64,000 nucleotides of DNA from the NCBI RefSeq assembly GCF_021560175.1, contig NZ_CP091110.1:2160001-2224000 (forward strand), written 5' to 3'. Source of the DNA: Neobacillus drentensis. Its GTDB lineage: Bacteria; Bacillota; Bacilli; Bacillales; Cytobacillaceae. The notes beneath the pieces were generated by a model. That model worked only from the letters and a program-made list of their open reading frames with translations, ran no database searches and had not been told where the DNA came from. This document shows positions 8,403 through 30,558 of the stretch, one piece after another (the stretch's first letter is position 1; each line of letters opens with the position of its first letter). The position numbers were made by a program, and so were the translations under genes.

Positions 8403-10208
8403 GTGAACAAGAAGAAAAGTTTTTCCATTCTACTAACGATTATCCTAATCATGATGTCCCTTTTTCCTTCCTTTGTTATGGCGGAAAGTGGAAGCGCTTT
8501 AAAAAAGGATAAACCTTCACCACTAAAAAATACTGAGGATTTAAAAACAGAGCGGGGATCATCCAGACCAATTCCGCAGCTATCTCCTGCTCAGCCAGGC
8601 ACACTAAAGAAGTGCGAGGCACTGTTATCTTTTGACTTTAAGAATACCAAGATCACGAAAGCAGAGCTCGTTCCTGAAGGAGCCCTGTCCAATGGAGGTA
8701 AGCCAGTTGGCCAACATTGCCTTATCCAGGGCAAAATGAATGAGCGCGTTAGCCCTGTAGACGGACAGACCTATGCGATCGGTTTTGAGATGCGTCTTCC
8801 TGTCGACTGGGCAGGCCGATTCCTTTACCAAGCCAATGGCGGCTTAGATGGTGTTGTCGCTTCTGCTCTTGGCAGTATCACAGGTGGCCAGCTTAATAAC
8901 GGTTTGCAGATGGGATTTGCTGTTATGAGCTCAGACGCAGGCCACAATGGAGCGCAGAATCCTCTGTTCGGGCTCGATCCGCAGGCCCGTTTGGATTACG
9001 GCTATCAGGCAGTTGGAACACTCACTCCAATGGCGAAGAGTTTGATTAAGGCTGCGTACGGTCGTGAGCCGGACCGCTCCTACTTTGCTGGAGGATCCAA
9101 CGGAGGACGGCACACCATGGTTGCTGCTTCCCGTTATGCGGATCAGTACGACGGATTCCTCGCAGTTGCTCCAGGCTTCAACCTGCCAAAGGCAGCGGTA
9201 GCCCAATTGTGGGGAGCTCAGCAGTGGGCCAAGGTAGCGACTACGACAGATAACCTTGAGACGGCGCTTCCACCGGCTGAGCGACAAGTGCTAGCGCAAG
9301 CGATCCTAGCCCGCTGTGATAGCCTGGACCGATTGGTTGACGGCATGGTGCAGGACAGCAATCGTTGCCAGAAGGTTTTCGACGTTCAGCGGGACGTCCC
9401 AACTTGCGATACGGTACGAGATGGAACCTGCTTGACAGAAGAGCAGAAGCATGTTGTGCAGGATGTTTTCGCAGGAGCTAAGACAAGTTCTGGAAAAGAG
9501 CTCTACTCTTCCTTCCCATTTGATCCAGGGATCGTTCAGGGCGGCTGGGCCGAATGGAAGTTCAGGAGCTCTGTGGGTCCACGTGACCCCGTTGCTGTCG
9601 GCTTCATCTTCTCAACACCACCGGTGGATAAAAGCATGTTAAAGGACACCTTAGGCTATGCCCTTAACTTTAATGTGGATACTCAGGCGGGGGTGATTTA
9701 CAAGTCCAACGAACTGTACACCGAAAGCGCCATGGAGTTCATGACACCGCCAAACCCGACTAATTTGGATACGATGCGCAATTCAGGGGCCAAGATGATC
9801 GTGGTTCACGGTGCCGCGGATGGAGTTTTCTCCCCTGCAGACACAGCACGCTGGTATGAGAATCTCGACGCGAACTACCAGAACAAAGCCGAGGAGTTCG
9901 TCCGCTACTTCGAGGTTCCTGGCATGGGGCACGTCCGTGGCGGTCCCGCCACCGATCAGTTTGACGGGCTTGGTGCGCTAATCAAGTGGGTTGAGAACGG
10001 CTCAGCGCCAGACCGAATAATCGCCACGGCGCGCGGTGAGGGCAATCCGGGCGGAGTAAACCCGGATGTACCATCCACCTGGGCACCTGACCGTTCCCGT
10101 CCTCTTTGCCCATACCCGCTTGTGGCCCGCTATACAAAGGGCGATCCGGAAGTAGCCTCAAGCTTCCAGTGTAAGCCTAGTTCAGGGGGTTCGGGACTTA
10201 ACCAATAG
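8403..10208 (+). CDS. Secreted tannase/feruloyl esterase family hydrolase
   Basis: A 601-aa protein with a signal peptide (MNKKKSFSILLTIILIMMSL, cleavage near AESG at 28-30). The rest is a tannase/feruloyl esterase (PF07519-type) alpha/beta hydrolase. The nucleophile is S232 in FAGGSNGGRH, the acid probably D473 in HGAADGVFS and the base H510 in GMGHVRGG, with at least eight Cys for the disulfides of this family. It should release aromatic acids from esters such as feruloyl, chlorogenic or gallate esters outside the cell. It starts at GTG. From about codon 50 the DNA is much richer in G and C than its neighbours, which suggests transfer onto a local signal sequence. Its promoter carries the shared box of the aromatic regulon. 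Confidence 0.88.
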   Translation: MNKKKSFSILLTIILIMMSLFPSFVMAESGSALKKDKPSPLKNTEDLKTERGSSRPIPQLSPAQPGTLKKCEALLSFDFKNTKITKAELVPEGALSNGGKPVGQHCLIQGKMNERVSPVDGQTYAIGFEMRLPVDWAGRFLYQANGGLDGVVASALGSITGGQLNNGLQMGFAVMSSDAGHNGAQNPLFGLDPQARLDYGYQAVGTLTPMAKSLIKAAYGREPDRSYFAGGSNGGRHTMVAASRYADQYDGFLAVAPGFNLPKAAVAQLWGAQQWAKVATTTDNLETALPPAERQVLAQAILARCDSLDRLVDGMVQDSNRCQKVFDVQRDVPTCDTVRDGTCLTEEQKHVVQDVFAGAKTSSGKELYSSFPFDPGIVQGGWAEWKFRSSVGPRDPVAVGFIFSTPPVDKSMLKDTLGYALNFNVDTQAGVIYKSNELYTESAMEFMTPPNPTNLDTMRNSGAKMIVVHGAADGVFSPADTARWYENLDANYQNKAEEFVRYFEVPGMGHVRGGPATDQFDGLGALIKWVENGSAPDRIIATARGEGNPGGVNPDVPSTWAPDRSRPLCPYPLVARYTKGDPEVASSFQCKPSSGGSGLNQ

Positions 10209-10217
10209 CCATCCAGA

Positions 10218-10262
10218 AACAGAGGGGCGTGCTCTATAGGGAACAGGGCATGCCCCTCTGTT
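10218..10262 (+). terminator. Long hairpin after the esterase gene
   Basis: AACAGAGGGGCGTGC pairs with GCATGCCCCTCTGTT (15 bp, one G-U) across a 15-nt loop. It lacks a T-run, so it may be a terminator of weak type or an mRNA stabiliser. Confidence 0.7.
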
Positions 10263-10400
10263 ACGTATGTAAGAACTGTGAAGACTATCAATCTATCATA
10301 TTAATCATAGCTAAAGGAAGCGATCCTTGCGTTATCTTTGAAGTGTCTAATCAAATTATGGGTAAGAGTTCCACAATTTTAATGAAAATCATCCTATTTT

Positions 10401-10446
10401 TTAGTACATCGTGTACGTATTTTTTTATTTTTCCTTCACCTATAAT
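10401..10446 (+). promoter_or_regulatory. Promoter with conserved box, site 2 (ABC transporter)
   Basis: The box contains the perfect palindrome GTACATCGTGTAC (10404-10416) and TATAAT at 10441-10446, with 31 bp from palindrome centre to the -10. This is the cleanest of the four sites. It would give a leader of about 280 nt before the binding-protein gene. No other gene is supported in 10263-10731. Confidence 0.75.
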
Positions 10447-10577
10447 GAAAATACAAATATTCAGAACATTCATAAATATAAACTTGAGCTTGCAGGCAGG
10501 AGCTAGTTGCTAGATGGCAGTTTTTGAAAAAGCGATTCCTGTTTATTATCCTTATTAATCGTTTCATTGCTTTAAGA

Positions 10578-10591
10578 TGAAAACGATTACA
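10578..10591. promoter_or_regulatory. cre box (CcpA) in the ABC transporter leader
   Basis: TGAAAACGATTACA fits the catabolite-responsive element consensus TGWAANCGNTNWCA. It lies about 130 bp downstream of the predicted -10, where CcpA acts as a roadblock, and suggests repression of aromatic uptake by preferred sugars. Confidence 0.6.
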
Positions 10592-10731
10592 TCACTAGAA
10601 GTTAGCTTCTCTGTTCAAGTCTATTCTACTTGCGTAAATGGAGGTGAAAGGGAAAAGTAAGAATCTTAGAAAAGAGTGTCATTACTTTATGGGATTAGTT
10701 TGCGATCTTTCAATAGAAAAGGGGATTGAAT

Positions 10732-11904
10732 ATGAAAAAGATAATTAAAAAGTTAAGTATTTTAAGTTTCATTCTTGGACTAGTCTTTGCTTTGGCCGCC
10801 TGTAATGCGGAAAGCTCTGGCGGCAGCGGTGGTGACGGTGAAAAAGCAGGTGGAAAGGTCATTAAGATCGGTGCCATTTTTGCTGAAACCGGTCCCGCTT
10901 CCACTCTAGGAAAAACCCAAGCAAATTATGTGAAGCTTCTTCAAAAGCAATTAGACGAAGCAGGTCCGATCAATGGAAAGAAAATTGAAATTGTCATGCA
11001 AGATTATGAAACAGATGACACCAAAGCCGTAGTGGCGGCTGATAAATTAATTTCTGAGGGAGTAGTCGCGGTCGTGGGCGCCACGCAAGCTAGTACTTCC
11101 ATGGCGATTTTACCAAAGATTTCAGGAGCAGGCATTCCGTTAATGACGGTTGCTCCGGTCAATCCAGCCACAAAAAATATCTATCAAATGGCACCAAGTA
11201 ACTCAACTAGTGCCAAACTAATTATTAAATTCTTAAAAGAAAATAATATTTCGAAAGTGGCATGGATTAATGCCAGAGATGGTTTTGGTGTGGATGGACT
11301 TCCACCATTCGAAAAGGCTGCAAAAGAGAATAAAATTGAGATTGTTGCCCACGAAGAGTTTGATGCTACGGCTACAGATATGACTGTACAATTAACCAAT
11401 ATTCGCAAAAAGAATCCTGAAGCCGTAATCGTATGGTCAAGAACTCCAGGTGCTGGAATCGTTGCCCGGAACTTTAAAACACTTGGATTCGATATTCCAA
11501 TGATTCAATCCTCTGCATCTGCAAATCAAGGTTTCTTAGACCAAGTGAAGGATAACAATGAGAACCTCTATGTAATCGGAAGCAAATTAAGTGTTGTTGA
11601 TCAATTGGCTGATAGTGAGCAAAAGGAGCGTTTAAATAAGTTTCGTGAAGAATACCGGGCGATGTTTAATAGTGACCCAGATAACTTTACTGCCCATGCA
11701 GCTGATGGTTTCCATCTAATTATTGAAGCGATCAAAGCAGGGAATACGACACCTGCTAAAATCCATAATTATCTAAAAAAAGAAGTAGGTAAATATCCAG
11801 GCCTTACAGGTACCTTCGAACTCCAGTCTAATTATGTAGGTCCTTATGAAGATGGCTTCGCCGTTCTTGGTATTGAAAATAACAAATGGAAGTATCGCGA
11901 TTAA
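10732..11904 (+). CDS. ABC transporter substrate-binding lipoprotein, branched-chain amino acid type (probable aromatic acid binder)
   Basis: A 390-aa periplasmic-binding-protein type I of the Leu/Ile/Val group. The lipobox is LAAC with C24 as the lipidated Cys, after a hydrophobic signal of about 16 residues. Family marks are GAIFAETGPASTLGK and SAKLIIKFLKENNISKVAW. The start MKKIIKK is chosen because AAGGGG lies 7 nt upstream; an in-frame TTG two codons earlier is too close. It is followed by the permease and ATPase genes. In Rhodopseudomonas, proteins of this group (CouP) bind hydroxycinnamates, and the catabolic context here favours a similar ligand over amino acids. Confidence 0.85.
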   Translation: MKKIIKKLSILSFILGLVFALAACNAESSGGSGGDGEKAGGKVIKIGAIFAETGPASTLGKTQANYVKLLQKQLDEAGPINGKKIEIVMQDYETDDTKAVVAADKLISEGVVAVVGATQASTSMAILPKISGAGIPLMTVAPVNPATKNIYQMAPSNSTSAKLIIKFLKENNISKVAWINARDGFGVDGLPPFEKAAKENKIEIVAHEEFDATATDMTVQLTNIRKKNPEAVIVWSRTPGAGIVARNFKTLGFDIPMIQSSASANQGFLDQVKDNNENLYVIGSKLSVVDQLADSEQKERLNKFREEYRAMFNSDPDNFTAHAADGFHLIIEAIKAGNTTPAKIHNYLKKEVGKYPGLTGTFELQSNYVGPYEDGFAVLGIENNKWKYRD

Positions 11905-11971
11905 ATTTTAATTGAAATTAGAAGAGGTCAAATGGAACCTAAGCAGTGAATACTTTCAAAGAATAGATGAA

Positions 11972-12003: not shown

Positions 12004-12024
12004 CATGAAGAAAGGGGCGCGTCC

Positions 12025-15448: not shown

Positions 15449-15474
15449 GGAAGTAATACATGGAGGTTATGACA

Positions 15475-16833
15475 ATGAAAGCAAATTCTATTAATCCTAA
15501 CAATGTAATCGATCATAGTAGATTTCATTCCTACCATTTGAGGCTTATTTTTTGGATGTTCCTTGTCATCATGTTTGATGGATATGATGTGGTTATTTAC
15601 GGTGCTGCTGTTCCTTCTCTTATTAAGGAATGGGGGATATCCGATGTCACGGCTGGAGCGATTGGAAGTTATACCGTCATTGGTACCGCAATTGGCGCGA
15701 TAATGTTCGGAATGGCCGCAGATAAATTAGGGCGCAAGAATATTATTCTATTAACGACGTTATTATTTAGCTTGTTTACTTTACTTTCTGGCTTTGCTAG
15801 TAACCCTGTTACATTTACCGTTTTTCGTGTCATGGCTGGTATTGGTTTGGGAGGAGTTATGCCAAATGTTATTGCCTTAACAACCGAGTATGCTCCTAAA
15901 CGTATACGTTCTGCAATTGTCTCGTTTGTATTCTGTGGCTATTCCGTTGGTGCGATTGTGGCTGCTTTAACGAGCCGGACTCTTCTTCCAACGGCGGGCT
16001 GGGAGCCTGTTTTTTGGCTGGCAGGAGTTCCATTATTGTTTCTTCCATTTATGCTGAGAAATATTCCAGAATCTATTGGTATTCTAGTAAATAAGGGCAA
16101 AGAAGAGAAGGTAAAGAAAATCCTTTATAAGATAGATTCTAGCTTGGATTTAAAAGCAGCGATTCATGTTGAAAAACAGCAAGCTAAAACACCTGGATCG
16201 CCTGTTATCAAGTTATTTGAAGAAAAAAGAGCATTGAGTACGTTGATGTTTTGGATTTCTTGTTTTAGCGCCTTTGTCCTTATTTATTCTATGAATACCT
16301 GGTTACCACGGCTGATGATGCAGTCAGGCTATGACCTTAGCTCAAGTCTCACCTTTACAGCAGTAATGCAATTAGGTGCGATTGCAGGTACTTTAATTTT
16401 TGGCCGTCTAGTTGATAAATGGGGTTTTAAAAAAGTTCTTGTTCCGTTATTTTTCTGTGGAGCGATTGCCCTATCGTTAATCGGCTTTACTAAAAGCACA
16501 ATGCTAGCGTTTATCTACATTTCAGTCATTGGGGCTTCCTCTGTAGGAGTGCAAAATATGTCAAATGCTTTTGTTTCTCAATATTACCCGTTTTCCATGC
16601 GGTCAACCTCTTTGGGCAGTACGATGGCTTTTGGCAGAATGGGAGGAATTGTAGCACCTATATTTGTTGGAGTCTTACTTTCTATGAACTTAATGCCTCA
16701 GTTTAACTTTGCAGCGATTGCATCGGCTGCTGTTCTTGGTGGTTTTGCGATGTTGTTTGTTCAAGAAAAGCATGGAGATTATCATAAAGATAGAAAAGCT
16801 TCTCATGATAAGAATTTGAAAATAGCAAAATAA
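15475..16833 (+). CDS. MFS transporter, aromatic acid:H+ symporter (AAHS) family
   Basis: A 452-aa 12-helix major facilitator with DGYDVVIYG in TM1 and motif A GMAADKLGRKN, both AAHS marks. The start MKANSINPNN is preferred because GGAGG lies 8 nt upstream; an ATG 15 nt earlier also has a possible site. It is a paralog of the transporter at 3567. Together with the ABC system it gives the cell a low-affinity and a high-affinity route for an aromatic acid. It is the last gene before a hairpin. Confidence 0.88.
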   Translation: MKANSINPNNVIDHSRFHSYHLRLIFWMFLVIMFDGYDVVIYGAAVPSLIKEWGISDVTAGAIGSYTVIGTAIGAIMFGMAADKLGRKNIILLTTLLFSLFTLLSGFASNPVTFTVFRVMAGIGLGGVMPNVIALTTEYAPKRIRSAIVSFVFCGYSVGAIVAALTSRTLLPTAGWEPVFWLAGVPLLFLPFMLRNIPESIGILVNKGKEEKVKKILYKIDSSLDLKAAIHVEKQQAKTPGSPVIKLFEEKRALSTLMFWISCFSAFVLIYSMNTWLPRLMMQSGYDLSSSLTFTAVMQLGAIAGTLIFGRLVDKWGFKKVLVPLFFCGAIALSLIGFTKSTMLAFIYISVIGASSVGVQNMSNAFVSQYYPFSMRSTSLGSTMAFGRMGGIVAPIFVGVLLSMNLMPQFNFAAIASAAVLGGFAMLFVQEKHGDYHKDRKASHDKNLKIAK

Positions 16834-20324: not shown

Positions 20325-21104
20325 ATGAGTTATGAATTTTTATTATGTGAAATCGAAAATAAAGTAGCGGTTGTAACGATCAACAGACCACCTGTAAACC
20401 CATTGAACACACAGGTGTTTAACGAATTGTCCGATTTATTCGACTATCTGGAAACAAATGAAGAAGTACGGGCGATTGTTTTAACTGGAAGAGGGGAGAA
20501 GGCTTTTGTAGCTGGTGCGGACATCACTGAAATGGCTAACTTGGACCTTGTCGGTGTAAATAAAATGAACAAAACATCCAGAGCTGTTTTCTCCAAAATT
20601 GAAAATCTAGCAAAACCTGTTATTGCAGCACTAAATGGGCTTGCTCTTGGCGGTGGTCTTGAACTCGCACTAGCATGTGATTTACGTATTAGTTCAAGTA
20701 AAGCGAAATTTGCCTTCCCTGAAGTGGGTCTTGGAATTATCCCTGGCGGCGGCGGTACCCAGCGCCTGCAAAAAATCGTTGGTCAGGGAGTAGCAAAGGA
20801 ATTGCTTTATTTTGGGGAAATGTTTGATGCTTATCGTGCCTTAGAACTACAAATTGTAAACAAAGTGGTACCTGGGGAAGAACTTCTTGAGACAGCTAAG
20901 GAATGGGCCAACAAATTAGCCCAAAAACCGCCAGTTGCCCTGCAAATGTTGAAATTGGCTGTTAATACGGGAGGAAACACTGATATCGAATCGGGATTAA
21001 TTATTGAAAGTACCTGCTTTGCAAATGCCTTCTCAACAGAGGATCGTAAAGAAGGATTGAAGGCATTTGTAGAAAAAAGAAAACCGGTGTTTGCAGGACG
21101 ATAA
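20325..21104 (+). CDS. Enoyl-CoA hydratase
   Basis: A 259-aa crotonase-family enzyme. Both catalytic Glu of true hydratases are present: E113 in GGGLELA and E133 in FPEVGLG, with the oxyanion loops AGADI and GLALGG. It hydrates an enoyl-CoA (for a cinnamoyl-CoA, the 2,3 double bond). The start MSYEFLLCE is chosen by GGAGGGG 6 nt upstream; a longer frame overlaps the upstream gene. It is cotranscribed with the dehydrogenase. Both Glu favour a hydratase over a retro-aldol hydroxycinnamoyl-CoA hydratase-lyase, though the latter cannot be excluded. Confidence 0.9.
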   Translation: MSYEFLLCEIENKVAVVTINRPPVNPLNTQVFNELSDLFDYLETNEEVRAIVLTGRGEKAFVAGADITEMANLDLVGVNKMNKTSRAVFSKIENLAKPVIAALNGLALGGGLELALACDLRISSSKAKFAFPEVGLGIIPGGGGTQRLQKIVGQGVAKELLYFGEMFDAYRALELQIVNKVVPGEELLETAKEWANKLAQKPPVALQMLKLAVNTGGNTDIESGLIIESTCFANAFSTEDRKEGLKAFVEKRKPVFAGR

Positions 21105-21240: not shown

Positions 21241-22806
21241 ATGGTGAATGATCGTAATCATTTTACGGTTTATGGAATCCTTGAACATGCTGCAAAAGTT
21301 TTTGGTGAAAAAGAAGCTGTATTTGATTTAAATAATCGAATAACATTCTCACAAATTAAAGCTAATGTGGACAAAATGGCAGCCGCATTCGTCAGGCGTG
21401 GAATTAAAAAAACGGATCGAATCGCCGTCTCCGTACCGAATTGGTATGAAACGATTGTAATATTTTTCGCTGCTGCAAAAATTGGAGCTGTACTTGTACC
21501 ATTCAACCCCAAATATAAGGCCCATGAAGTCAGCCATATTTTAAGGAATTCAGAACCTAAAGCGTTAATCGCCACAGAAGAATTTGAAAAAAATTTCGGA
21601 TTTAACGATGCACTTTACTTTGTACCTGAAATCATTACGGTAAGGTCTATCATCAATAATTTCCCATCTTATGAAGATTTACTAAATGATGATACGTTAG
21701 AAATTAGCCAAGAAGAAGTAATTGATGTAAATAACGATTTATTTTGTATTCTTTATACTTCGGGTACGACCGGTGTTCCAAAGGGCGTTATGATTACCCA
21801 TCGCAGTGTTGTGCAATCCGCTAATGTAATGGGGATTGAACTGCGCTGTACAGATAATGATGTTTTAATTCTTCCCTCACCTTTATTCCACATCTTTGGT
21901 ATGGCTGTAAATTTGTTTAATGCCGCTTTTACAGGTACGCGGATCGTTTTAGTAGAAAAATTTCATCCTTCAGACATTCTCAGTTTAATTGAACAGGAAA
22001 AAGTGACCATTCTTCATGGAGTACCCACCATGTTTATAAAATTATTAGAAACGCAGGATTTTGACTCCTACGATTTATCCTCATTAAGAACAGGTGTTGT
22101 CGGAGCCTCACCTATTCCAGCGACGAAAGTTAAAGAAATAAGGGATCGAATGGGCATCAATCTTTGTCAGTCATTTGGAATTACGGAGACTGTTTCGGTT
22201 ACTTTGACACCTTATGATGACGAGGAAAAGAATATGATTGAAACACTTGGAAAACCACTTCCAGGTGTAAAGTTAAAAATAGTCGATGATAATAGGATGC
22301 CATTACCTCCTGGAGAAAAAGGGGAAATCGCGATTCACAGCTTTGGCACAATGAAGGGTTATTATAAATTGCCTGAACAGACAGCTGCTGTTTTGGATCA
22401 CGAAGGCTGGTATTACACCGGTGATCTAGGTATTCTCGATGATCAGGGCAATCTGAAATTTATTGGCAGGAAAAAGGAAATTATCATTCGAGGCGGCTTT
22501 AATATTTACCCTCAAGAAATTGAAGCCGTTTTGTCTAAGCACCCTAAAGTAGTAGAAGCTGCGGTCATCGGTATTCCACACGAAACACTTGGTGAAGTCG
22601 TCTGTGCAGTGATTCAGCTCAAGGACGGGAAAGAAAGCACAGAGGAAGAAATGAAAAATTACTTAAAGGAAAAAATGGCAAATTTCAAGGTTCCGCAAAC
22701 GGTCGTATTTACAGATAAGTTCCCTGTAACCGCGAGTGGAAAAATTCAAAAACTTAGACTAAAGGAAGAGATTAATGCTAAAACAAGTCCAACGATTAAA
22801 AGTTGA
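21241..22806 (+). CDS. Acyl/aryl-CoA ligase (AMP-forming)
   Basis: A 521-aa adenylate-forming ligase. The P-loop is YTSGTTGVPKG (172-182), the second core motif SFGITET (311-317), the adenylate-contact Asp D395 (YYTGDLG) and the catalytic Lys K501 (TASGKIQK). It activates a carboxylic acid to its CoA thioester with ATP. The size and motifs fit medium-chain acyl or hydroxycinnamoyl/benzoyl ligases; substrate choice cannot be read from sequence. Its neighbours (thioesterase, acyl-CoA dehydrogenase, gentisate dioxygenase) suggest an aromatic acid. It starts the second beta-oxidation operon (ligase, thioesterase, dehydrogenase). Confidence 0.9.
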   Translation: MVNDRNHFTVYGILEHAAKVFGEKEAVFDLNNRITFSQIKANVDKMAAAFVRRGIKKTDRIAVSVPNWYETIVIFFAAAKIGAVLVPFNPKYKAHEVSHILRNSEPKALIATEEFEKNFGFNDALYFVPEIITVRSIINNFPSYEDLLNDDTLEISQEEVIDVNNDLFCILYTSGTTGVPKGVMITHRSVVQSANVMGIELRCTDNDVLILPSPLFHIFGMAVNLFNAAFTGTRIVLVEKFHPSDILSLIEQEKVTILHGVPTMFIKLLETQDFDSYDLSSLRTGVVGASPIPATKVKEIRDRMGINLCQSFGITETVSVTLTPYDDEEKNMIETLGKPLPGVKLKIVDDNRMPLPPGEKGEIAIHSFGTMKGYYKLPEQTAAVLDHEGWYYTGDLGILDDQGNLKFIGRKKEIIIRGGFNIYPQEIEAVLSKHPKVVEAAVIGIPHETLGEVVCAVIQLKDGKESTEEEMKNYLKEKMANFKVPQTVVFTDKFPVTASGKIQKLRLKEEINAKTSPTIKS

Positions 22807-22821: not shown

Positions 22822-23241
22822 GTGAAATCTGAACATCATTTCCAAGTACGCTGGGGAGATACGGATGCTGCAGGAATTGTTTTTTACCCGAATTTTTATA
22901 AATGGATGGATGACGCCACACATGCGTATTTAGCCGCGATTGGCTATCCATCCTCCAAGCTGTTTGCTGAAGAACAGATTGGAGTACCATTATTGGAGGC
23001 AAATTGTGCTTTTAAACGACCGCTCTTGTTTGAAGACCAGGTGATCGTAAAGAGTTATGTGGAAGAACTACATAACAAGGTTTTTAAAATCAAGCATGTA
23101 TTTGTAAAAGGGGATCAAAATGCAGCAGAAGGGTATGAAGTTCGTGCATGGACATCCTTTAAAGATAAACCAAAAGCACAGCCTATTCCAGATCGTATCC
23201 GAGAAAAAATGATGCCAAAAGCGGAAACCGTGGAGGGATAA
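22822..23241 (+). CDS. Acyl-CoA thioesterase, 4-hydroxybenzoyl-CoA thioesterase type
   Basis: A 139-aa hot-dog-fold thioesterase. The motif WGDTDAAGIVFYPNFYKWMD (11-30) is the signature of the Pseudomonas 4-hydroxybenzoyl-CoA thioesterase group, with D15 at the catalytic Asp position. It starts at GTG. It should hydrolyse an aromatic acyl-CoA such as a hydroxybenzoyl-CoA or gentisyl-CoA to the free acid. It lies between the CoA ligase and the acyl-CoA dehydrogenase, 4 nt before the latter. Its place just upstream of gentisate dioxygenase makes release of gentisate from gentisyl-CoA an attractive idea, which is inference. Confidence 0.88.
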   Translation: MKSEHHFQVRWGDTDAAGIVFYPNFYKWMDDATHAYLAAIGYPSSKLFAEEQIGVPLLEANCAFKRPLLFEDQVIVKSYVEELHNKVFKIKHVFVKGDQNAAEGYEVRAWTSFKDKPKAQPIPDRIREKMMPKAETVEG

Positions 23242-23245
23242 CATC

Positions 23246-24949
23246 GTGTTAACCGAAAAAAAGGATCAAAAACACTTTTTATATGATGAAATTTTTCCGG
23301 AGGATGTGTTTACCCCTGAGGATTTTGAAGATGAACAGATCATGCTCGCGGATATGGCAACTAAATTTGTCATAAATGAAGTCTATCCAAAACTAGAGAA
23401 AATCGAGAATCAGGAATTTTCGGAAACGGTTAATCTGATTAAAAAAGCCGGGGAGCTTGGTCTGATTGGAGCCGATATCCCCGAAGAAGATGGCGGGTTG
23501 GAATTAGGGAAGGTATGTGCCACGATTATTTCTGAAAAAATGGCATCTGGCCGCTCGTTCTCGATCACCTTTGGCGGCCAAACAGGTATTGGGGCGCTGC
23601 CAATTGCATATTTTGGAACAAAAAGACAGAAGGAAAAGTATCTTCCGGACATTTTGACTGGCGAAAAAATAGCAGCCTATGCTTTAACAGAGCCATCTTC
23701 CGGTACAGATGCTATGAGTGTTAGAACCAATGCTGTATTGTCAGATTGTGAAAAGTATTATGTGATAAATGGCGAAAAACAATGGATCACAAACTCTGCA
23801 TTCGCCGATATTTTTATCGTCTATGCAAAGGTAGATGGACAAAAGTTTACCGCTTTTATTGTAGAAAAAGGTTACCAGGGTGTTTCTACAAGCCCAGAGG
23901 AAAAGAAAATGGGGCTAAAAGGTTCCTCGACTCGATCACTTATTTTAGAAAATGTGAGAGTACCTGTTGAAAATGTGATCGGTGAAGTTGGAAGAGGGCA
24001 TATTATTGCATTCAATGTATTAAATATAGGCCGTCATAAAATTTCGGCAACCTCGCTTGGGACAGCTAAACGAGCGATCGAAATTGCTGTCAACTATGCA
24101 AATGAACGCAGGCAATTTGGTCAGTCTCTATCTAGTTTCAATTTAATCAAAAGTAAAATTGCCGATATGGTTATAAAAACGTTTGTGAATGAAAGTGCTG
24201 TCTACCGAACAGCAGGATTGATGCAGGATGGGTTCGAGGGAATGAAGCAGACTGGCAATGATTATGGAGAAACCATTGCCCGATATGCAATGGAATGCTC
24301 GATCAATAAAGTGATGTCCACAGAATTTCTTGATTTTGTTGTCGATGAGGCCTTACAAATCCATGGCGGTTATGGTTATATGGCAGAATATGAAATTGAA
24401 ACCCTTTACCGGGATTCCCGAATCAATCGAATCTTTGAAGGAACCAATGAGATTAATCGAATACTTATCGCTACTACTGCGGCAAAAAATCATCATGTGC
24501 GAACGGAGGACAATGATATTAAAAACGGTGTGTTCCAGCGTGAGAAGCAAGTGCTTCACCTGTTGAAAAAACTGTTTGATGCCGCAATTGAGTCTGTAAA
24601 TAAAAAATCAATGGGCAATTTGAATATCGAGCAAGAAATTGCGGCTTTCCTTGCAGATTTAGTTATGACGATTTTTGGCATGGAAAGCGCCATCCTTAGA
24701 ACAGAAAAAGCAATCCAGAAATCCGGGGAGGAAGCGAATAGACAAAAGATTGACTGTACTAAGGTATATTCGCTTGAAACCTCTCAACAATTTGCTCTTA
24801 GAGTGTTAAATATGATTAATCATTTCGGCGATGGCGAGATTTTTTCACGAATTGCCAGTCTCCTCATTATGAGCAGTTCGGAAAATATTATAGTCGTTAA
24901 ACGCAGAATTGCAGATGCTGTCATTATGAAAGAATGCTATTTTTGCTAA
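23246..24949 (+). CDS. Acyl-CoA dehydrogenase with C-terminal extension
   Basis: A 567-aa FAD enzyme that makes the 2,3 double bond of an acyl-CoA. Core motifs are YALTEPSSGTDA (145-156), GRHKISATSLG and the end of the catalytic domain IHGGYGYMAEY, with the catalytic Glu E398 in RIFEGTNEINR. About 150 residues follow the usual 400-residue core, as in the larger Bacillus FadE-type dehydrogenases. GTG start with GGAGGG upstream. It would handle a saturated side chain (arylpropionyl-CoA) before the hydratase step. It ends before a terminator. Confidence 0.9.
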   Translation: MLTEKKDQKHFLYDEIFPEDVFTPEDFEDEQIMLADMATKFVINEVYPKLEKIENQEFSETVNLIKKAGELGLIGADIPEEDGGLELGKVCATIISEKMASGRSFSITFGGQTGIGALPIAYFGTKRQKEKYLPDILTGEKIAAYALTEPSSGTDAMSVRTNAVLSDCEKYYVINGEKQWITNSAFADIFIVYAKVDGQKFTAFIVEKGYQGVSTSPEEKKMGLKGSSTRSLILENVRVPVENVIGEVGRGHIIAFNVLNIGRHKISATSLGTAKRAIEIAVNYANERRQFGQSLSSFNLIKSKIADMVIKTFVNESAVYRTAGLMQDGFEGMKQTGNDYGETIARYAMECSINKVMSTEFLDFVVDEALQIHGGYGYMAEYEIETLYRDSRINRIFEGTNEINRILIATTAAKNHHVRTEDNDIKNGVFQREKQVLHLLKKLFDAAIESVNKKSMGNLNIEQEIAAFLADLVMTIFGMESAILRTEKAIQKSGEEANRQKIDCTKVYSLETSQQFALRVLNMINHFGDGEIFSRIASLLIMSSSENIIVVKRRIADAVIMKECYFC

Positions 24950-25051: not shown

Positions 25052-26173
25052 ATGACAAAAAATGATGTACAAACGCAGGAACATTTAGATTTGTATTATG
25101 AGGGGATGAAGAAAAACCACTTGGGTCCACTCTGGTATGATCTTGGCCATATGGTTACAAAAGAACCTGTGCATGATGTTGAGCCCTATTTATGGAAATG
25201 GAAAACAATTCGTGAGTATGTACTGAAAGCTGGGGAGTTGCTAAAACCTGGTAAAGATGCAGAAAGGCGGGTTGTGTATCTTCAGAATCCAAGTCTATTA
25301 AAACATGGACTTGTCGGGTACGGAACGCATACTCTCTATGCTGGGATTCAGTTGCTGCTTCCAGGAGAAAATGCTCCTTCCCATCACCATTCACAGTCTG
25401 CCATTCGGTTCATTATTGAAGGGAGCGGAGCCTATACCGCCGTAAATGGGGAGAAAACCTATATGGAAAGAGGCGATATGGTTTTGACCCCTGCATGGAC
25501 ATGGCATGAACACAAGCATGAAGGAACCGAACCGGTATTTTGGCTTGATGGTCTGGATGTGGGGCTTGTTCGCACATTAGCTGCCTCCTTTTTTGAACCA
25601 TATGAAGAGGAAAACTATCCAATGGAAGCTCCTGAAAATTATTCAAACATGCAATTTTCAATGGGAGCTTTTAAAAAGCTGAACGAATCCAAACAGCCTG
25701 GCTATCCATCTCCCATTTATGGATACAAGTTTGATAGAGTAAAATATTTGCTAGATCAAATGAAGGAAACGGATCATGATCCATTTGATGGTTATGCGAT
25801 TGAATATATTAACCCAATAACAGGGGGCTCTGCTGATTCCCGTATTGGTACCATGATGCAAAAATTAAAATCAGGACAGCAAACAAAAGCACACCGGCAT
25901 GTGCATAGTGCTATTTACCATGTGCTTGAGGGGAATGGTTATACCGTTATTGATGGGCAAAAGTTTGAGTGGGAGAAGGGTGACTTCTTTATTTTACCGC
26001 CGTGGAGTCAGCATGAACACGTAAATACTGGATCTAGCGATGTCTATCTTTTCTCTTTTAATGATAAACCTGTTATGGAGAAATTGGAGCTTGAATATGG
26101 TGAGGCTTATCAAGACAATGGCGGTCATCAAGTAATTGAAAAGGTCTTTGTTCCAGATACTTCAGTTGAATAA
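25052..26173 (+). CDS. Gentisate 1,2-dioxygenase
   Basis: A 373-aa bicupin. The first cupin carries the iron ligands in SHHHSQSAIRFIIEG (H111-H113) and H152 in TWHEHKHEG; the second, probably structural, cupin has KAHRHVHSAIYHVLEG and QHEHVN. The N-terminal LGPLWYDL motif is typical of gentisate dioxygenases. The enzyme opens gentisate (2,5-dihydroxybenzoate) between C1 and C2 to maleylpyruvate. GGGAGTG precedes the ATG by 7 nt. The FAH-family hydrolase follows 15 bp downstream, which is the expected next step. Salicylate or 1-hydroxy-2-naphthoate dioxygenase are close relatives and cannot be fully excluded. Confidence 0.92.
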   Translation: MTKNDVQTQEHLDLYYEGMKKNHLGPLWYDLGHMVTKEPVHDVEPYLWKWKTIREYVLKAGELLKPGKDAERRVVYLQNPSLLKHGLVGYGTHTLYAGIQLLLPGENAPSHHHSQSAIRFIIEGSGAYTAVNGEKTYMERGDMVLTPAWTWHEHKHEGTEPVFWLDGLDVGLVRTLAASFFEPYEEENYPMEAPENYSNMQFSMGAFKKLNESKQPGYPSPIYGYKFDRVKYLLDQMKETDHDPFDGYAIEYINPITGGSADSRIGTMMQKLKSGQQTKAHRHVHSAIYHVLEGNGYTVIDGQKFEWEKGDFFILPPWSQHEHVNTGSSDVYLFSFNDKPVMEKLELEYGEAYQDNGGHQVIEKVFVPDTSVE

Positions 26174-26188
26174 GTAGGGGGATACAAA

Positions 26189-27058
26189 ATGAAAATTGCT
26201 ATTTTTAATGAAAATCTGCTTGGACTAGTAATGGGTGAAAGAGTAGCAGATATTTCTAGCGTGGTAGGGTGGGATACGGTTAATCCAAATGAATCATTTT
26301 TGAAGTTGGTAGAAAACTATCAGGATTTAAAAAGTAAAATTTACGCTGAGATTGAGTTTTGTCCTACGTATCATTTGTCAGAGGTGAAACTTAAGTCCCC
26401 TGTTCCTGAAACTAGAAAAATATGGGCAGCACCTGTTAATTATCGCAATCATCAACTAGAAATGAATAAAATGTTTAACAATGCACCTCGGACGATTGAA
26501 GAGATTAAACTGTTTTTAAAATCCCCAGAGTCGCTATCAGGGCCAGCAGATCCGATTTTACTGCCAATCAAGGGGCGGAGAACGGACCATGAGGCTGAAC
26601 TAGGTTATGTTGTTGGAAAGAAGGCAAAAAATGTTCCGGCATCTGAAGCCAAGGATTACATTTTCGGTTATTTCGCTTTGTTGGATATTTCTATTAGAGG
26701 TAACGAAGAAAGAACATGGCGAAAATCGTTTGATACGTTTACACCGATTGGTCCATGGATTGTGACGGCAGATGAGATTGAGGATCCTAATGATTTAGCA
26801 ATGAAGCTATGGGTAAATGATGAAATACGTCAGGATGGCAGTACCAAGCACTTGATCTATGATTGTTACCAATGTTTTGAAGCAGCCAATCAAAATATGA
26901 CACTTCATCCTGGTGATATTATTGCCACGGGTACCCCTGAAGGAGTGGGGCCAATCAAGGCTGGCGATTGCGTTCGAATTGAGATTGAAAAAGTTGGGGC
27001 GTTTACCGTCAATGTCCAATATGCGGAGAAAGTTGTAACGGAATATTGCGTCAGGTAA
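26189..27058 (+). CDS. FAH-family hydrolase (maleylpyruvate or fumarylpyruvate hydrolase)
   Basis: A 289-aa fumarylacetoacetate-hydrolase-family protein. The metal-binding Glu pair is E135 and E137 (DHEAELGYV) with D166 (LLDISIR), and the signature FDTFTPIGPW is at 181-190. It should cleave the ring-fission product to pyruvate plus maleate or fumarate. No glutathione-, mycothiol- or DinB-type maleylpyruvate isomerase gene is recognised nearby, so it may act directly on maleylpyruvate, or an unknown protein supplies the isomerase. It is cotranscribed with gentisate dioxygenase. Confidence 0.87.
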   Translation: MKIAIFNENLLGLVMGERVADISSVVGWDTVNPNESFLKLVENYQDLKSKIYAEIEFCPTYHLSEVKLKSPVPETRKIWAAPVNYRNHQLEMNKMFNNAPRTIEEIKLFLKSPESLSGPADPILLPIKGRRTDHEAELGYVVGKKAKNVPASEAKDYIFGYFALLDISIRGNEERTWRKSFDTFTPIGPWIVTADEIEDPNDLAMKLWVNDEIRQDGSTKHLIYDCYQCFEAANQNMTLHPGDIIATGTPEGVGPIKAGDCVRIEIEKVGAFTVNVQYAEKVVTEYCVR

Positions 27059-27074
27059 ATAAGTTAGCTGAATG

Positions 27075-27115
27075 ATCCCTTATGAAGGAGTATATCCTTC
27101 GTGAGTGATTTTTTG
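27075..27115 (+). terminator. Terminator after the FAH-family gene
   Basis: Stem with core GAAGGA / TCCTTC, extended by CTTA/TGAG and ATC/GAT pairs, followed by TTTTTT. Confidence 0.8.
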
Positions 27116-27198
27116 TTAAATAATGTCAATGCTAATCCGTGATTTACAAGAAACTCCGTCGCCGATAAGGTTGATTGTCTACCGAAAAGTTAGAATTA

Positions 27199-27259
27199 CT
27201 AGAATCGCGGTCGTTAATAGACAACGACATATTATTCTAGCAATCCCATTTCTTATAAT
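27199..27259 (+). promoter_or_regulatory. Nested inverted repeat at the monooxygenase promoter
   Basis: CTAGAAT / ATTCTAG (27199-27205, 27234-27240) encloses GTCGTT / AACGAC (27210-27215, 27223-27228). A TATAAT lies at 27254-27259, so the outer arm covers the -35 region. This looks like an operator different from the box used at the four other promoters. Confidence 0.5.
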
Positions 27260-27304
27260 TAACTTAACAAATAATAAAACATTTCAAAAGGGGAGCGAAA
27301 CAGC

Positions 27305-28531
27305 ATGGTAAAAAATAAATGTGATGTGATTGTAGTAGGAGCTGGTCCTGTTGGTCTCACAGCAGCTCTTGCATTAAAACAAAAGGGAATTTCATCTGTT
27401 GTGATTGAGGCGGACCCGTTTGGGCGTCCACGCCCTGGAAGCAGAGCCATCTATATCCACAATGCCACACTTAACCATCTGGAAGAAACATACCCAGGAT
27501 TAGGCTTTACATTAGCCCGTAATGGGATCATCTGGCCAATCAATCGAACTCTATATAAAGGTAAAGAAGTATACGTTCGCAATTATGGTATCACCAATAA
27601 CCAAGATCCAACTAAATTGCCGCATTTTACTTCTCTTCATCAGGATGAAATTGAAAAACACCTATATGAAGCGTGCGTTGAAGCCGGGGTAGAGGTAATT
27701 TGGGATTTGCCTGTAGCTAAACTTGATATTAGTGATAATGGGGTCGTCGTCACCAATGTATCGGGTGAAGTTTGGGAAGCACAGTATGTTATCGGGTGCG
27801 ATGGTGCCCGCTCTGTTGTAAGACAACAAGCAGGATTGACCTTTGAAGGGCCTAGGACGGAGGATACATTCTTAGTACTGGATGTAAAAGAAGACGAAGA
27901 GAACCCTCTGCCGCTAGAACGTACCTTCCATTATCAGCATCCTGCAACAGATGGAAGAAATGTGATGTTTGTTCCATTTAAAGGAGGTTGGCGTGTTGAC
28001 CTTCAATTGTTAGAAGGTGACAACCCAGACGATTTTACTAGCATCGAAGGTGTAAAACAGTGGCTCCCAAAGGTGATGGATCCTAAGTATGCGGAACGGG
28101 TTACATGGGTATCGACTTATCGATTCCACCAGGTAGTTGCCAATTCCTTTACCGATGAAAAGCACCGAGTTTTACTCGCTGGAGAAGCCGCTCATTTATT
28201 TGCTCCATTTGGTGCTCGGGGTCTTAATTCAGGTGTTCCAGATGCTCTCAAGGCAATAGCTGGAATTGAAAAAGCACTTGACTCCCATTCAGAGGAGGAC
28301 CGAAGACAGGCAATTCATTTAGCTGCTAATGAACGATATATTGCTGCCAATTGGAATCGTGACTGTTCAACCACAGCGCTGCATCACCTGCAAGGGAACT
28401 CTCCGGAGATGAATATGAAACGTGAACTTGCTGCTTCACTTGTTTCGATTGTACCAAGATTAGGCCGGTGGTTAGAAGAGGGTCCCTATGGTCCTAAATT
28501 TGGTCCGCCGGAATTAACGACAAAATATTAA
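27305..28531 (+). CDS. FAD-dependent aromatic monooxygenase
   Basis: A 408-aa class A flavoprotein hydroxylase. The dinucleotide motif GAGPVGLTAALAL is at 12-24, the DG motif GCDGARS at 164-170 and the GD-type motif as GEAAH at 293-297 (Glu in place of the usual Asp). It hydroxylates an aromatic ring using NAD(P)H and O2. In a gentisate cluster it most likely makes gentisate from 3-hydroxybenzoate (6-hydroxylase) or gentisyl-CoA from salicylyl-CoA (as SdgC of Streptomyces does). A CoA ligase and a 4HBT thioesterase nearby favour the CoA-linked version. Substrate is not settled by sequence. Confidence 0.85.
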   Translation: MVKNKCDVIVVGAGPVGLTAALALKQKGISSVVIEADPFGRPRPGSRAIYIHNATLNHLEETYPGLGFTLARNGIIWPINRTLYKGKEVYVRNYGITNNQDPTKLPHFTSLHQDEIEKHLYEACVEAGVEVIWDLPVAKLDISDNGVVVTNVSGEVWEAQYVIGCDGARSVVRQQAGLTFEGPRTEDTFLVLDVKEDEENPLPLERTFHYQHPATDGRNVMFVPFKGGWRVDLQLLEGDNPDDFTSIEGVKQWLPKVMDPKYAERVTWVSTYRFHQVVANSFTDEKHRVLLAGEAAHLFAPFGARGLNSGVPDALKAIAGIEKALDSHSEEDRRQAIHLAANERYIAANWNRDCSTTALHHLQGNSPEMNMKRELAASLVSIVPRLGRWLEEGPYGPKFGPPELTTKY

Positions 28532-28554
28532 TCTGCGTGAAAGGAGAGAATAGA

Positions 28555-29112
28555 ATGGCAGTGGCACAGTTAATGAATGAAGGAAAATATGGTCTTACAG
28601 CTCGGTTGGTAAATGAGTTAATTGAAAAACTAACCTCGATTAACTGGTATTCAAAAGCAGGTCAATATAATCCGGATGTGGAAGGCAAACTAGCCAGGTT
28701 TATGAGTGGTCTTGGTGTTCATAATTATGAAATTAAATGGATTACAAAAGGACAGACCGCTGAAACAATTGAAAAACTTTCATTTGAAAATAGTGAACTT
28801 TGGGAAGTTATGAAAGAATTACCTGGTCAGCTTAGTAATAAGATAGATAGCCTAGGTCACCAACAACTTCTAATTGATGTTGTGGATAAGGTCCCAGAGG
28901 CTGTGTTTCATGGAGTATATAAACATGCTTACGAGGCTTTTAATCAAGAGAATACGATTAAATTTCTAGTTGGTCATGCGATGTATATATGTATACTTGC
29001 CTGCACAGCTGAACTTGCTGATGAAAAAGAAATGATTTCAATTTTAGTAAACATTTTAAATGAAGGACATCTTCCGTTAGGACCAAACGGTAATACCTTT
29101 TACCTTTTATAA
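28555..29112 (+). CDS. Unrecognised 185-aa protein in the gentisate gene cluster
   Basis: A 185-residue, mostly helical soluble protein that I cannot assign to a family. Features seen are NWYSKAGQYNP near residue 24, a His/Cys-containing C-terminal third (VGHAMYICILACTAELADEKE, about 142-162) and the end LPLGPNGNTFYLL. There is no signal peptide. AAAGGAGAG lies 7 nt before the ATG, and it follows the monooxygenase by 23 bp, so the two form one operon. The cluster lacks a recognised maleylpyruvate isomerase and a flavin reductase partner, so this protein may fill a missing step or assist the hydroxylase. Both ideas are speculative. Confidence 0.75.
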   Translation: MAVAQLMNEGKYGLTARLVNELIEKLTSINWYSKAGQYNPDVEGKLARFMSGLGVHNYEIKWITKGQTAETIEKLSFENSELWEVMKELPGQLSNKIDSLGHQQLLIDVVDKVPEAVFHGVYKHAYEAFNQENTIKFLVGHAMYICILACTAELADEKEMISILVNILNEGHLPLGPNGNTFYLL

Positions 29113-29123
29113 AGATAATAATG

Positions 29124-29160
29124 AATCAGCCCTGCGAGTTTAAAAGGGCTGATTTTATTT
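29124..29160 (+). terminator. Terminator after the 185-aa protein gene
   Basis: AATCAGCCCT / AGGGCTGATT 10-bp stem, then TTATTT. Confidence 0.88.
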
Positions 29161-29244
29161 CTCAACCGTAATAAACCCTCCAAACCGTTATATGTATTAA
29201 AGCATAAACAAATTCAACAATATTAACGAAGAATAGTGGTGTTT

Positions 29245-29290
29245 TTCCTATATAGTGCGGATAACAAAATGTAAGTTAAGTCATTACAAT
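29245..29290 (+). promoter_or_regulatory. Promoter with conserved box, site 4 (thiolase)
   Basis: TTTTCCTATATAGTGCGGAT aligns with the other three boxes (half-site less perfect); TACAAT is at 29285-29290, 31 bp from the box centre at 29254. The fixed spacing supports the match. Confidence 0.6.
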
Positions 29291-29352
29291 AAAAATAAGA
29301 TCTTGAAAAAAGAGATTTTAATAGAAATAGAATAAGTTATTTTATATAAAAA

Positions 29353-29366
29353 TGAAAGCGTTTTGA
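29353..29366. promoter_or_regulatory. cre-like box before the thiolase gene
   Basis: TGAAAGCGTTTTGA matches the cre consensus TGAAAGCGYTWWCA except for the C near the end. It abuts the ribosome binding site of the thiolase gene. Confidence 0.45.
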
Positions 29367-29382
29367 AAAGGAGATGGAGAAG

Positions 29383-30558
29383 ATGAGCAATATCGTTTTA
29401 GTAGAAGGGGCTAGAACCGCATTTACAGAAATATCTGGGACATTCAAAGGTATATCTGCAACAGATCTAGGTGCAGAGGCAGCAAGAGGGGCGATTCGAA
29501 AAGCAAATATCAATCCGGAAGACATTGATCAGGTGGTCTTCGCAAATGTTCAGCAGTCTAGTAAAGATGCTCATCTTTTAGCGAGGCATGTTGGCTTAAA
29601 GGCAGGGCTGCCAATCCATGTACCAGGGTTAACTATAAATCGTCTATGTGGAAGTGGTGTAGAAGCGATTCTAACGGCAGCACGTTACATTTTGACAGGG
29701 GAAGCAAGGGCTGTACTTGCTGGAGGAACAGAGAGCATGAGTAATGTGCCCCATGTCATTCCAGGGATGAGATGGGGGAGTCCGCTAGGCGGACCAGTTA
29801 TTGAGGACTGGGTATGGGATGGTTTATACGATACAGTAGGCGGCTGTACCATGGCTGATACAGCAGAAAATTTGGCGGAAAAATATGAGATTACGCGTAA
29901 AGAGGTCGATCAACACGCACTTTCTAGTCATGAACTGGCCTTAGCAGCGATTGAAAAAGGTTATTTACAAGAAGAAATTATACCAGTAACCGTACAAGGC
30001 AGAAAAGAAGAAATCATTGTGGACCGTGATGAACATGTCCGAAAAACAAGTCTGGAAAAACTAGCGAAATTAAAGCCTCGGTTTATCGAAAATGGTGTGG
30101 TTACTCCTGGCAATGCAAGCGGGATGGTAGATGGAGCTGCGGCTGTGATTGTTACTTCAAGTGACTATGCAGAAGAAAAAGGATTAAAACCACTCGCAAG
30201 ACTTGTGTCATGGAGTGTGGTTGGAGTTGACCCTAAATATATGGGGATCGGTCCTGTTCCTGCGATTCAAACTGCGTTGAAAAAAGCAGATCTGAAGGTT
30301 GAAGACTTAGATTTAATCGAAATCAACGAAGCTTTCTCAGCACAATATTTAGCATGTCAAAAAGTATTAGGTTTCGATCCGGCAATTGGAAATGTCAATG
30401 GGGGAGCGATTGCGCTTGGACATCCACTGGCGGCAAGCGGTACTAGAATTACATTATCGTTAATCTATGAATTACAACGAAGAAACGCACGATTCGGTGT
30501 ATCTGCTGTTTGTATTGGCGGCGGGCAAGGAATTGCCTCGATTTGGGAACGTATCTAA
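29383..30558 (+). CDS. Acetyl-CoA acyltransferase (thiolase)
   Basis: A 391-aa degradative thiolase. The nucleophile is C89 (NRLCGSGVEA), with H347 (GGAIALGHPLAASGTR) and the second Cys C377 (CIGGGQG). It cleaves a 3-ketoacyl-CoA with CoA; for an aryl substrate the products are acetyl-CoA and a hydroxybenzoyl-CoA. The start MSNIVLVEGARTAF is the usual thiolase start; an ATG three codons earlier is too near the AAAGGAG site. It has its own promoter with the regulon box and its own terminator. It completes the side-chain beta-oxidation set with the ligase, dehydrogenase, hydratase and 3-hydroxyacyl-CoA dehydrogenase. Confidence 0.92.
   Translation: MSNIVLVEGARTAFTEISGTFKGISATDLGAEAARGAIRKANINPEDIDQVVFANVQQSSKDAHLLARHVGLKAGLPIHVPGLTINRLCGSGVEAILTAARYILTGEARAVLAGGTESMSNVPHVIPGMRWGSPLGGPVIEDWVWDGLYDTVGGCTMADTAENLAEKYEITRKEVDQHALSSHELALAAIEKGYLQEEIIPVTVQGRKEEIIVDRDEHVRKTSLEKLAKLKPRFIENGVVTPGNASGMVDGAAAVIVTSSDYAEEKGLKPLARLVSWSVVGVDPKYMGIGPVPAIQTALKKADLKVEDLDLIEINEAFSAQYLACQKVLGFDPAIGNVNGGAIALGHPLAASGTRITLSLIYELQRRNARFGVSAVCIGGGQGIASIWERI

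Follow-up and report, generated by a model that had tools for sequence, protein, structure and literature searches.

How could a Bacillus relative carry a phenylpropanoid to gentisate, and at which step would coenzyme A (CoA) leave the substrate? The question is raised by a gene block at positions 8403-30558 of a 64,000-nucleotide stretch of Neobacillus drentensis DNA (contig NZ_CP091110.1, positions 2,160,001 to 2,224,000 of the forward strand; hereafter the window), in which all listed open reading frames (ORFs) lie on the + strand with short gaps between them. A first-pass annotation had proposed a CoA-dependent route from a phenylpropanoid to gentisate. Conservation of the loci that carry its flavin monooxygenase (FMO), together with the precedents phgABC and BH1999, supports such a route for a phenylpropanoid-type acid, in which the CoA ester, and not the free acid, is hydroxylated on the ring. 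The reading that we favour, with a probability of roughly 0.57, is that a p-hydroxycinnamate is converted to 4-hydroxybenzoyl-CoA, and this by the FMO to gentisyl-CoA, without release of CoA.

The chemistry that we infer would be carried out by a catabolic module at 15460-30558, which would import a hydroxyphenylpropanoid, p-coumarate or dihydro-p-coumarate being the likeliest. The CoA ligase would activate the acid, and the side chain would be shortened by the acyl-CoA dehydrogenase (if saturated) and then by the hydratase, the hydroxyacyl-CoA dehydrogenase and the thiolase, giving acetyl-CoA and 4-hydroxybenzoyl-CoA, on which the CoA would be kept. No second ligase would be needed in the window, since the thiolase product is already a CoA ester. 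The FMO would hydroxylate ring carbon 1 of this thioester, with the acyl-CoA group shifting to carbon 2 (an NIH shift), and the 4HBT thioesterase would release gentisate from the resulting gentisyl-CoA. The cupin dioxygenase would open the gentisate ring, and the FAH protein would hydrolyse the cleavage product, either as it stands or once it has been isomerised by a DinB-like protein from a second gentisate locus of the genome.

Conservation of the genes around the monooxygenase

Searches with the FMO at an E value of 1e-30, counting the window genome, found homologues in 2 of 398 genomes drawn from the phylum, 4 of 151 drawn from the family and 12 of 398 drawn from the class, one of the last (G558) at a mere 35% identity. 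In named genomes eight FMO loci were found, including a 37-residue match in Roseovarius that was dropped; the nearest named relatives of the window FMO were in Bacillaceae, for example Bacillus renqingensis and Metabacillus niabensis. The FMO is rare, yet widely scattered.

Gene neighbourhoods were compared by tblastn (E 1e-10, coverage at least 35%) across 21 Bacillota FMO loci, the window included, each of 14 to 36 kb with one of 11 kb. The B. renqingensis locus and G460 enter as a single locus, G666 is a near-copy of G730, and some of the incomplete loci run into the end of a contig or stretch (L030, G585). A cupin of the gentisate dioxygenase (GDO) kind, of either type, lay near the FMO in 18 of the 21 loci, a 4HBT thioesterase in 16 and an FAH protein in 15. 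The hydratase and the hydroxyacyl-CoA dehydrogenase were found together in 13 loci, 12 of which also had the thiolase, and a FACS ligase (at least 35%) was found in 14. The acyl-CoA dehydrogenase was present at 50% or more in five loci, and at 52% or more in four loci besides the window. A PaaK-like ligase (at least 65%), so called where phenylacetate-CoA ligase models were among the best matches, under their cut-offs, occurred in six loci, one being the query's own and one a fragment. The FMO is accompanied by one of two feeders, the beta-oxidation set (12 loci) or a single PaaK-like aryl-CoA ligase (six loci), with two loci showing both kinds. These are G730, where the ligase fragment lies at the end of the stretch, and an Aeribacillus locus (L028) with a FACS ligase, hydratase, dehydrogenase and PaaK-like ligase, in which thiolase and 4HBT genes were undetected within its 21 kb. 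The FMO of Heyndrickxia coagulans 36D1 (L031, 10001-11168) and the hydroxyacyl-CoA dehydrogenase of G458 (L019, about 11955-12807) each appeared as two overlapping match pieces, indicating a frameshift or sequencing error.

Eight FMO-free stretches (132.5 kb, a non-random set from the window, its genome and two relatives) gave no match to the beta-oxidation, thioesterase or ligase genes or to the 191-residue protein encoded next to the FMO; the matches within them were the second gentisate locus and two FAH homologues at 30%. Recurrence of the core in other genera and families is not a matter of chance. In an FMO tree of 29 rows (eight unlabelled, and three labelled loci having pieces of both feeder kinds), the beta-oxidation label required four changes and the PaaK label four, three being forced by well-supported branches in each case. 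Because the feeder types are scattered over the tree and form no single groups, the data fit an exchange of feeder modules around one FMO activity. The four haloarchaeal loci labelled with an NDP-type synthetase formed one group, and the depth of the tree is unsure owing to long branches (Streptomyces and the outgroups).

In some haloarchaea, as in several Bacillota families, FMO homologues have genes for a thioesterase, a gentisate-dioxygenase-type cupin and a CoA ligase nearby. On two Streptomyces plasmids (L036, L075) the homologue sits among genes for p-aminobenzoate (PABA) synthesis, a fatty-acyl-AMP ligase, desaturases and an acyl carrier protein; the cluster may belong to a natural-product pathway that uses an activated aminobenzoate.

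Identity of the monooxygenase and the stage of hydroxylation

The best piece of the FMO scored 43.8 bits against the PobA model NF006091 (cut-off 351), for which the genome's own PobA, encoded elsewhere than in the window, scored 577 bits. Models of the MhpA type (3-(3-hydroxyphenyl)propionate hydroxylase) gave at best 137.7 against a cut-off of 390. The first-pass annotation had invoked the salicylyl-CoA 5-hydroxylase of Streptomyces as a precedent. NF006101 (PRK08255, a model of 768 positions), which we take to be the bifunctional salicylyl-CoA 5-hydroxylase/oxidoreductase, had six matches in the genome and none at the FMO, which weakens this precedent.

Two loci, G772 and G715, combine a PaaK-like ligase, a 4HBT thioesterase and the FMO and have no beta-oxidation genes. 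Since adding and removing CoA there would otherwise be futile, the FMO most likely acts on the CoA ester. The predicted structure of the FMO was too poor (mean pLDDT 60) to support an analysis of its pocket.

Comparison with known pathways

The phgABC system is said to have been described by Zhao et al. in 2018 from the host Brevibacillus laterosporus PHB-7a, with isotope work. It takes 4-hydroxybenzoate through a CoA thioester, a hydroxylation with a 1,2-shift and then thioester hydrolysis to gentisate (PMC7862547; this and the other papers given by PMC number are cited for the part of their text available to us). The window would follow the same three steps, but phgABC begins from free 4-hydroxybenzoate, whereas the beta-oxidation set of the window would deliver the CoA ester. 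A phgABC-type thioesterase gene is present in the window, as in the 16 Bacillota loci counted above, if the phgABC enzyme is of the 4HBT family, as we assume. As for the hydroxybenzoate-CoA ligase of phgABC, the window locus shows no PaaK-like gene and has a ligase of the FACS/4CL class, for which no single substrate is indicated. A second precedent is BH1999 of Bacillus halodurans C-125, a gentisyl-CoA thioesterase in a gentisate oxidation cluster (PMC516016). Here too a 4HBT class I thioesterase stands in a Bacillus gentisate cluster, and the window enzyme also has the catalytic Asp; in contrast to the window, no side-chain beta-oxidation module is described for the BH1999 cluster in the available text of that paper.

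The haloarchaeal 4-hydroxybenzoate pathway, in which Haloarcula D1 itself is known by citation only, resembles the window in its FMO homologues (44-49% identity), and in Halorussus and Halobaculum these are accompanied by thioesterase, cupin, FAH and CoA-synthetase genes. It differs in that the synthetase is apparently NDP-forming (by annotation) and not a FACS ligase, and no full beta-oxidation set lies near; a 3-hydroxyacyl-CoA dehydrogenase gene is 5 kb off in Halobaculum. The phd cluster of Corynebacterium glutamicum reportedly performs CoA-dependent beta-oxidation of hydroxycinnamates in a Gram-positive organism, ending in free hydroxybenzoates; it is not known to be tied to a CoA-ester monooxygenase of the kind proposed for the window. 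The SdgC pathway also leads from a CoA ester to gentisyl-CoA (PMC13215587), but NF006101 fails to match the window FMO, a comparison made by model and not with the Streptomyces SdgC sequence. Haloferax D1227, which is archaeal and is likened here by description, degrades phenylpropionate and cinnamate via gentisate (PMC4005966). For Bacillus ligniniphilus L1 a gentisate pathway was proposed from the genome, with three gentisate dioxygenase genes, but the available text links no CoA-ester hydroxylation to it (PMC5320714).

Enzymes of the feeder and of the lower pathway

The gene list of the first-pass annotation was correct, its families, those of the Liv permeases and ATPases apart, being backed by profile and PDB searches, although it had left out the PucR-type regulator, the 191-residue protein and the second gentisate locus of the genome. 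Malonyl-CoA synthetase, feruloyl-CoA synthetase and 4-coumarate-CoA ligase (4CL) are among the best solved relatives of the ligase, and no single substrate is indicated. The hydratase residues E113 and E133, which we take to be the catalytic pair, are invariant in 14/14 aligned rows, in agreement with the earlier remark that both catalytic Glu are present. The acyl-CoA dehydrogenase exceeds the cut-off of the Bacillus FadE model, and an enzyme of this type would admit dihydro substrates. The carrier scored 240.7 bits with MhpT and 221.3 with PcaK, both under cut-off.

The closest solved chain to the thioesterase, 5wh9, is named 4-hydroxybenzoyl-CoA thioesterase. D15 of the window enzyme, in a GDTDxxGIV stretch, matches the catalytic Asp position of PMC516016 and is invariant in 18/18 rows. 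Against the general model TIGR00051 the enzyme scored 56.6 bits, under the cut-off of 68.7. Residues H111, H113 and H152 of the dioxygenase, presumably the cupin metal ligands, are invariant in 16/16 rows. The TIGR02272 cut-off is missed by this enzyme, by the second GDO of the genome (308.5 bits) and by the matches in control genomes (4 of 14 had one); we call the window enzyme GDO-like because of this score.

The tblastn comparison of loci turned up no DinB-like isomerase for the window cluster. The second gentisate locus (G000:C1:680-682 kb, L052) carries an FAH gene, a DinB-like ORF (named from sequence) and a type 2 GDO; in several relatives these genes are found close to the FMO. The window cluster may therefore hydrolyse maleylpyruvate directly or share the isomerase of the second locus. 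Three further aromatic loci of this genome (L070, L071, L072) hold a catechol 2,3-dioxygenase-like gene with FAH and FMO genes, PobA beside two regulators (IclR-type by eye), and an extradiol dioxygenase nearest to MhpB models (under cut-off).

The ring isomer and alternative readings

Given a CoA route, we consider the para isomer somewhat more likely than not. A Streptomyces plasmid FMO homologue (48%) lies in a string with PabB (over its cut-off) and two AMP-binding enzymes, one of which has p-hydroxybenzoate-AMP ligase and benzoate-CoA ligase as its best models (both under cut-off); judged by these sequences, the string hints at para-substituted benzoyl substrates. Haloarcula sp. D1 is cited for conversion of 4-hydroxybenzoate to gentisate (PMC10815724, PMC4005966), and a search of the genome for phenolic-acid decarboxylase (PF05870) found none, which we count in favour. 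The 2- and 3-hydroxycinnamates of the first-pass annotation are possible substrates, but are less supported than those of the p-coumarate type, for which phgABC is the better precedent. As markers of the isomer, the PaaK-like ligases and the aldehyde dehydrogenases encoded next to some FMO loci were indecisive, all models shown for them being under cut-off.

Several observations weigh against the proposed p-hydroxycinnamate route. PobA gives free 4-hydroxybenzoate another way out in this genome. PobA was found in 3 of 15 FMO genomes tested directly, and in 3 of the 11 class genomes with a close FMO versus 30 of 398 overall, slightly above expectation (hypergeometric p = 0.04, or 0.05 when the 35% match G558 is counted), a pattern that does not suggest that the FMO has taken the place of PobA; the presence of PobA did not settle whether the isomer is para. 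The 2- and 3-hydroxybenzoyl-CoA isomers would give the same product without a shift. The window has no PaaK-like ligase, and its dioxygenase, hydratase, thioesterase and carrier all score below their cut-offs. The 4HBT thioesterase was undetected in five of the 21 loci and the dioxygenase in three, among them G772 (within its 20 kb), one of the two loci that pair ligase with thioesterase and have no beta-oxidation genes. Of the five haloarchaeal loci, two (Haloarcula and Halostagnicola) have neither a thioesterase nor a cupin nor an FAH gene nearby, and that of Halocatena shows no cupin. As to precedents, phgABC is likened to the window by description and not by sequence, so that orthology is not implied, and it produced no significant gentisate in the host of PMC7862547. 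Haloferax D1227 uses benzoate, 3-hydroxybenzoate and cinnamate via gentisate, substrates that are not para (PMC4005966), and in a pathway proposed for Comamonas p-coumarate yields 4-hydroxybenzoyl-CoA, from which hydrolysis then sets the free acid loose (PMC6307125).

The FMO could instead receive 3-hydroxybenzoyl-CoA, formed from m-coumarate or 3-(3-hydroxyphenyl)propionate, and hydroxylate it para to the hydroxyl group with no shift, a step that is chemically easy for a class A flavin monooxygenase. The slightly better fit of the carrier to MhpT than to PcaK, the presence of PobA to serve 4-hydroxybenzoate, and the passage of 3-hydroxybenzoate and cinnamate through gentisate in Haloferax D1227 (PMC4005966) speak for it. 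Yet the FMO falls far below the MhpA-type cut-offs, a comparison that concerns free-acid enzymes only, and the PABA-linked Streptomyces homologue points to para. Moreover, 3-hydroxybenzoate is usually hydroxylated as the free acid, a habit that would leave the ligase and thioesterase of G772 and G715 needless. We regard this reading as unlikely. We find it improbable that salicylyl-CoA, derived from o-coumarate, melilotate or coumarin, is 5-hydroxylated to gentisyl-CoA by the FMO: sdgC does convert salicylyl-CoA to gentisyl-CoA (PMC13215587), but the model that stands in for Streptomyces SdgC does not match this 408-residue protein.

If the thioesterase instead freed hydroxybenzoate first, the FMO would be an ordinary hydroxybenzoate hydroxylase. 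4HBT enzymes do hydrolyse 4-hydroxybenzoyl-CoA (PMC516016), and such hydrolysis is what was proposed for p-coumarate in Comamonas (PMC6307125). Against this, ligase, thioesterase and FMO would cycle for nothing in G772 and G715, and the FMO is not PobA, which makes a free-acid route highly improbable. An accidental placement of a fatty-acid beta-oxidation operon beside a gentisate operon is hardly credible: the enzymes do belong to general fatty-acid families, with the FadE model over its cut-off, but 12 of the 21 Bacillota loci, spread over several families and differing in gene order, have hydratase, dehydrogenase and thiolase together with the FMO, and none of the eight FMO-free stretches has any of them.

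Accessory genes and features of the window

The first-pass annotation had placed the esterase and two uptake systems within the block. None of the other 20 Bacillota FMO loci yielded the tannase-family gene or the Liv binding protein (1/21, the window only), and the two lie outside the conserved module. The nearest solved structures to the tannase-family protein are MHETases. Its gene has a GC content of 53.4%, compared with 35-45% in the other cluster genes, and a GC3 of 54.2%, compared with 31-38% in the other listed genes, the gene of the 191-residue protein (24.5%) excepted. The protein is 52-58% identical to the best six of 165 plasmid records, all six proteobacterial. It was probably gained recently by horizontal transfer, because it is both a GC outlier and matched on proteobacterial plasmids. 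The best solved relative of the Liv binding protein, 4gnr, is of the branched-chain amino-acid type, followed by other extracellular ligand-binding receptors. Homologues of the carrier (54-76% identity) were found in four other loci, and of the PucR-type regulator (at least 39%) in eight.

The 191-residue protein had no match in Pfam, NCBIfam, PHROGs or the plasmid records. Its AF2 model is helical, with a pLDDT of 91, and no PDB fold matched at E 0.001 or better (best Foldseek E 0.3); by profile, the best match was sc-apCC-4 at E 0.029. It was found in 11 of the 21 FMO loci and in 3 of 398 class genomes, all three of which carry the FMO as well. As a guess, it might be a partner of the FMO.

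Table 1. Genes of the block, with positions in the window and the match on which each name is based
Feature	Position	Strand	Evidence
Tannase/feruloyl-esterase family hydrolase, secreted	8403..10208	+	PF07519 450 bits; signal peptide read by eye
Liv-type ABC binding lipoprotein	10726..11904	+	PF13458
Liv-type ABC permeases	12025-12897, 12913-13950	+	named from sequence alone
Liv-type ABC ATPases	13953-14720, 14720-15448	+	named from sequence alone
Aromatic acid:H+ symporter family (AAHS-like) MFS carrier	15460..16833	+	TIGR00895 373.7 bits, cut-off 418.55 (under)
GAF-PucR type regulator	16969..19227	+	PF13556, PF13185
3-hydroxyacyl-CoA dehydrogenase	19451..20305	+	NF005875 (3-hydroxybutyryl-CoA dehydrogenase) 319.1 bits (cut-off 319); NF004474 368.6 (cut-off 408, under)
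Enoyl-CoA hydratase	20325..21104	+	library models, all 25 shown under their cut-offs; E113 and E133
Acyl/aryl-CoA ligase, FACS/4CL class	21241..22806	+	models shown under cut-off; solved relatives
4HBT thioesterase, proposed gentisyl-CoA thioesterase	22822..23241	+	5wh9 match 135 bits; D15
Acyl-CoA dehydrogenase, FadE type	23246..24949	+	NF058590 724.9 bits, cut-off 600
Gentisate 1,2-dioxygenase-like two-cupin ring-cleaving enzyme	25052..26173	+	TIGR02272 337.5 bits, cut-off 442.1 (under)
FAH-family hydrolase of ring-cleavage product	26189..27058	+	PF01557 197.4 bits, cut-off 23.9
FMO, 408 aa, proposed 4-hydroxybenzoyl-CoA 1-hydroxylase with acyl shift, gentisyl-CoA forming	27305..28531	+	PF01494 (FAD_binding_3)
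191-aa helical protein, no known family	28537..29112	+	no Pfam, NCBIfam or PHROGs match
Beta-ketothiolase, BktB-like	29374..30558	+	TIGR01930 450.4 bits, cut-off 240.55; BktB models under cut-off

The genome that harbours the window comprises 6.26 Mb in one contig, and the window has a GC content of 39.1%. Scans for promoter sites (39, versus 45.8 in shuffles) and terminator sites (12 versus 11.6) gave numbers about equal to those in shuffled sequence. A divergent cluster at 3567-8038 encodes a VOC-family dioxygenase of extradiol type (PF00903; models of catechol dioxygenases score under cut-off) and an AAHS-like MFS carrier, together with what look by eye to be an amidohydrolase and a LysR regulator. 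An ORF of 1491 aa lies at 52614-57089.

Implications

The first-pass annotation had regarded the full assembly of these steps in a Bacillus as undescribed. This is too wide a claim given BH1999 (PMC516016) and the conversion of 4-hydroxybenzoate to gentisate cited for some Bacillus species (PMC10815724), at least from the available parts of these papers. The layout that joins beta-oxidation to CoA-ester hydroxylation may nevertheless be a new element, its pieces being known elsewhere; in the open-licence literature, as far as its text was available, no printed account of a hydroxycinnamate-to-gentisate route via hydroxybenzoyl-CoA was found.

We propose, tentatively and at somewhat less than even odds, a fuller picture. 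The complete route would keep the beta-oxidation thioester as the migrating group of the NIH shift, one ATP-dependent activation serving both halves; across Bacilli the same CoA-ester monooxygenase core would repeatedly have gained a feeder, in some cases a beta-oxidation set and in others a direct hydroxybenzoate ligase; and a helper protein of possibly new fold would travel with this core in Bacillaceae. If the proposed route is true, hydroxycinnamate beta-oxidation and a CoA-dependent carboxyl NIH shift are joined with no free hydroxybenzoate between them, which would explain the CoA thioesterase in the gentisate clusters of Bacilli and provide testable enzymes for the use of plant-derived p-coumarate. 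With the FMO family placed as here, the CoA-ester NIH shift would also become open to direct test in many Bacilli and in haloarchaea.

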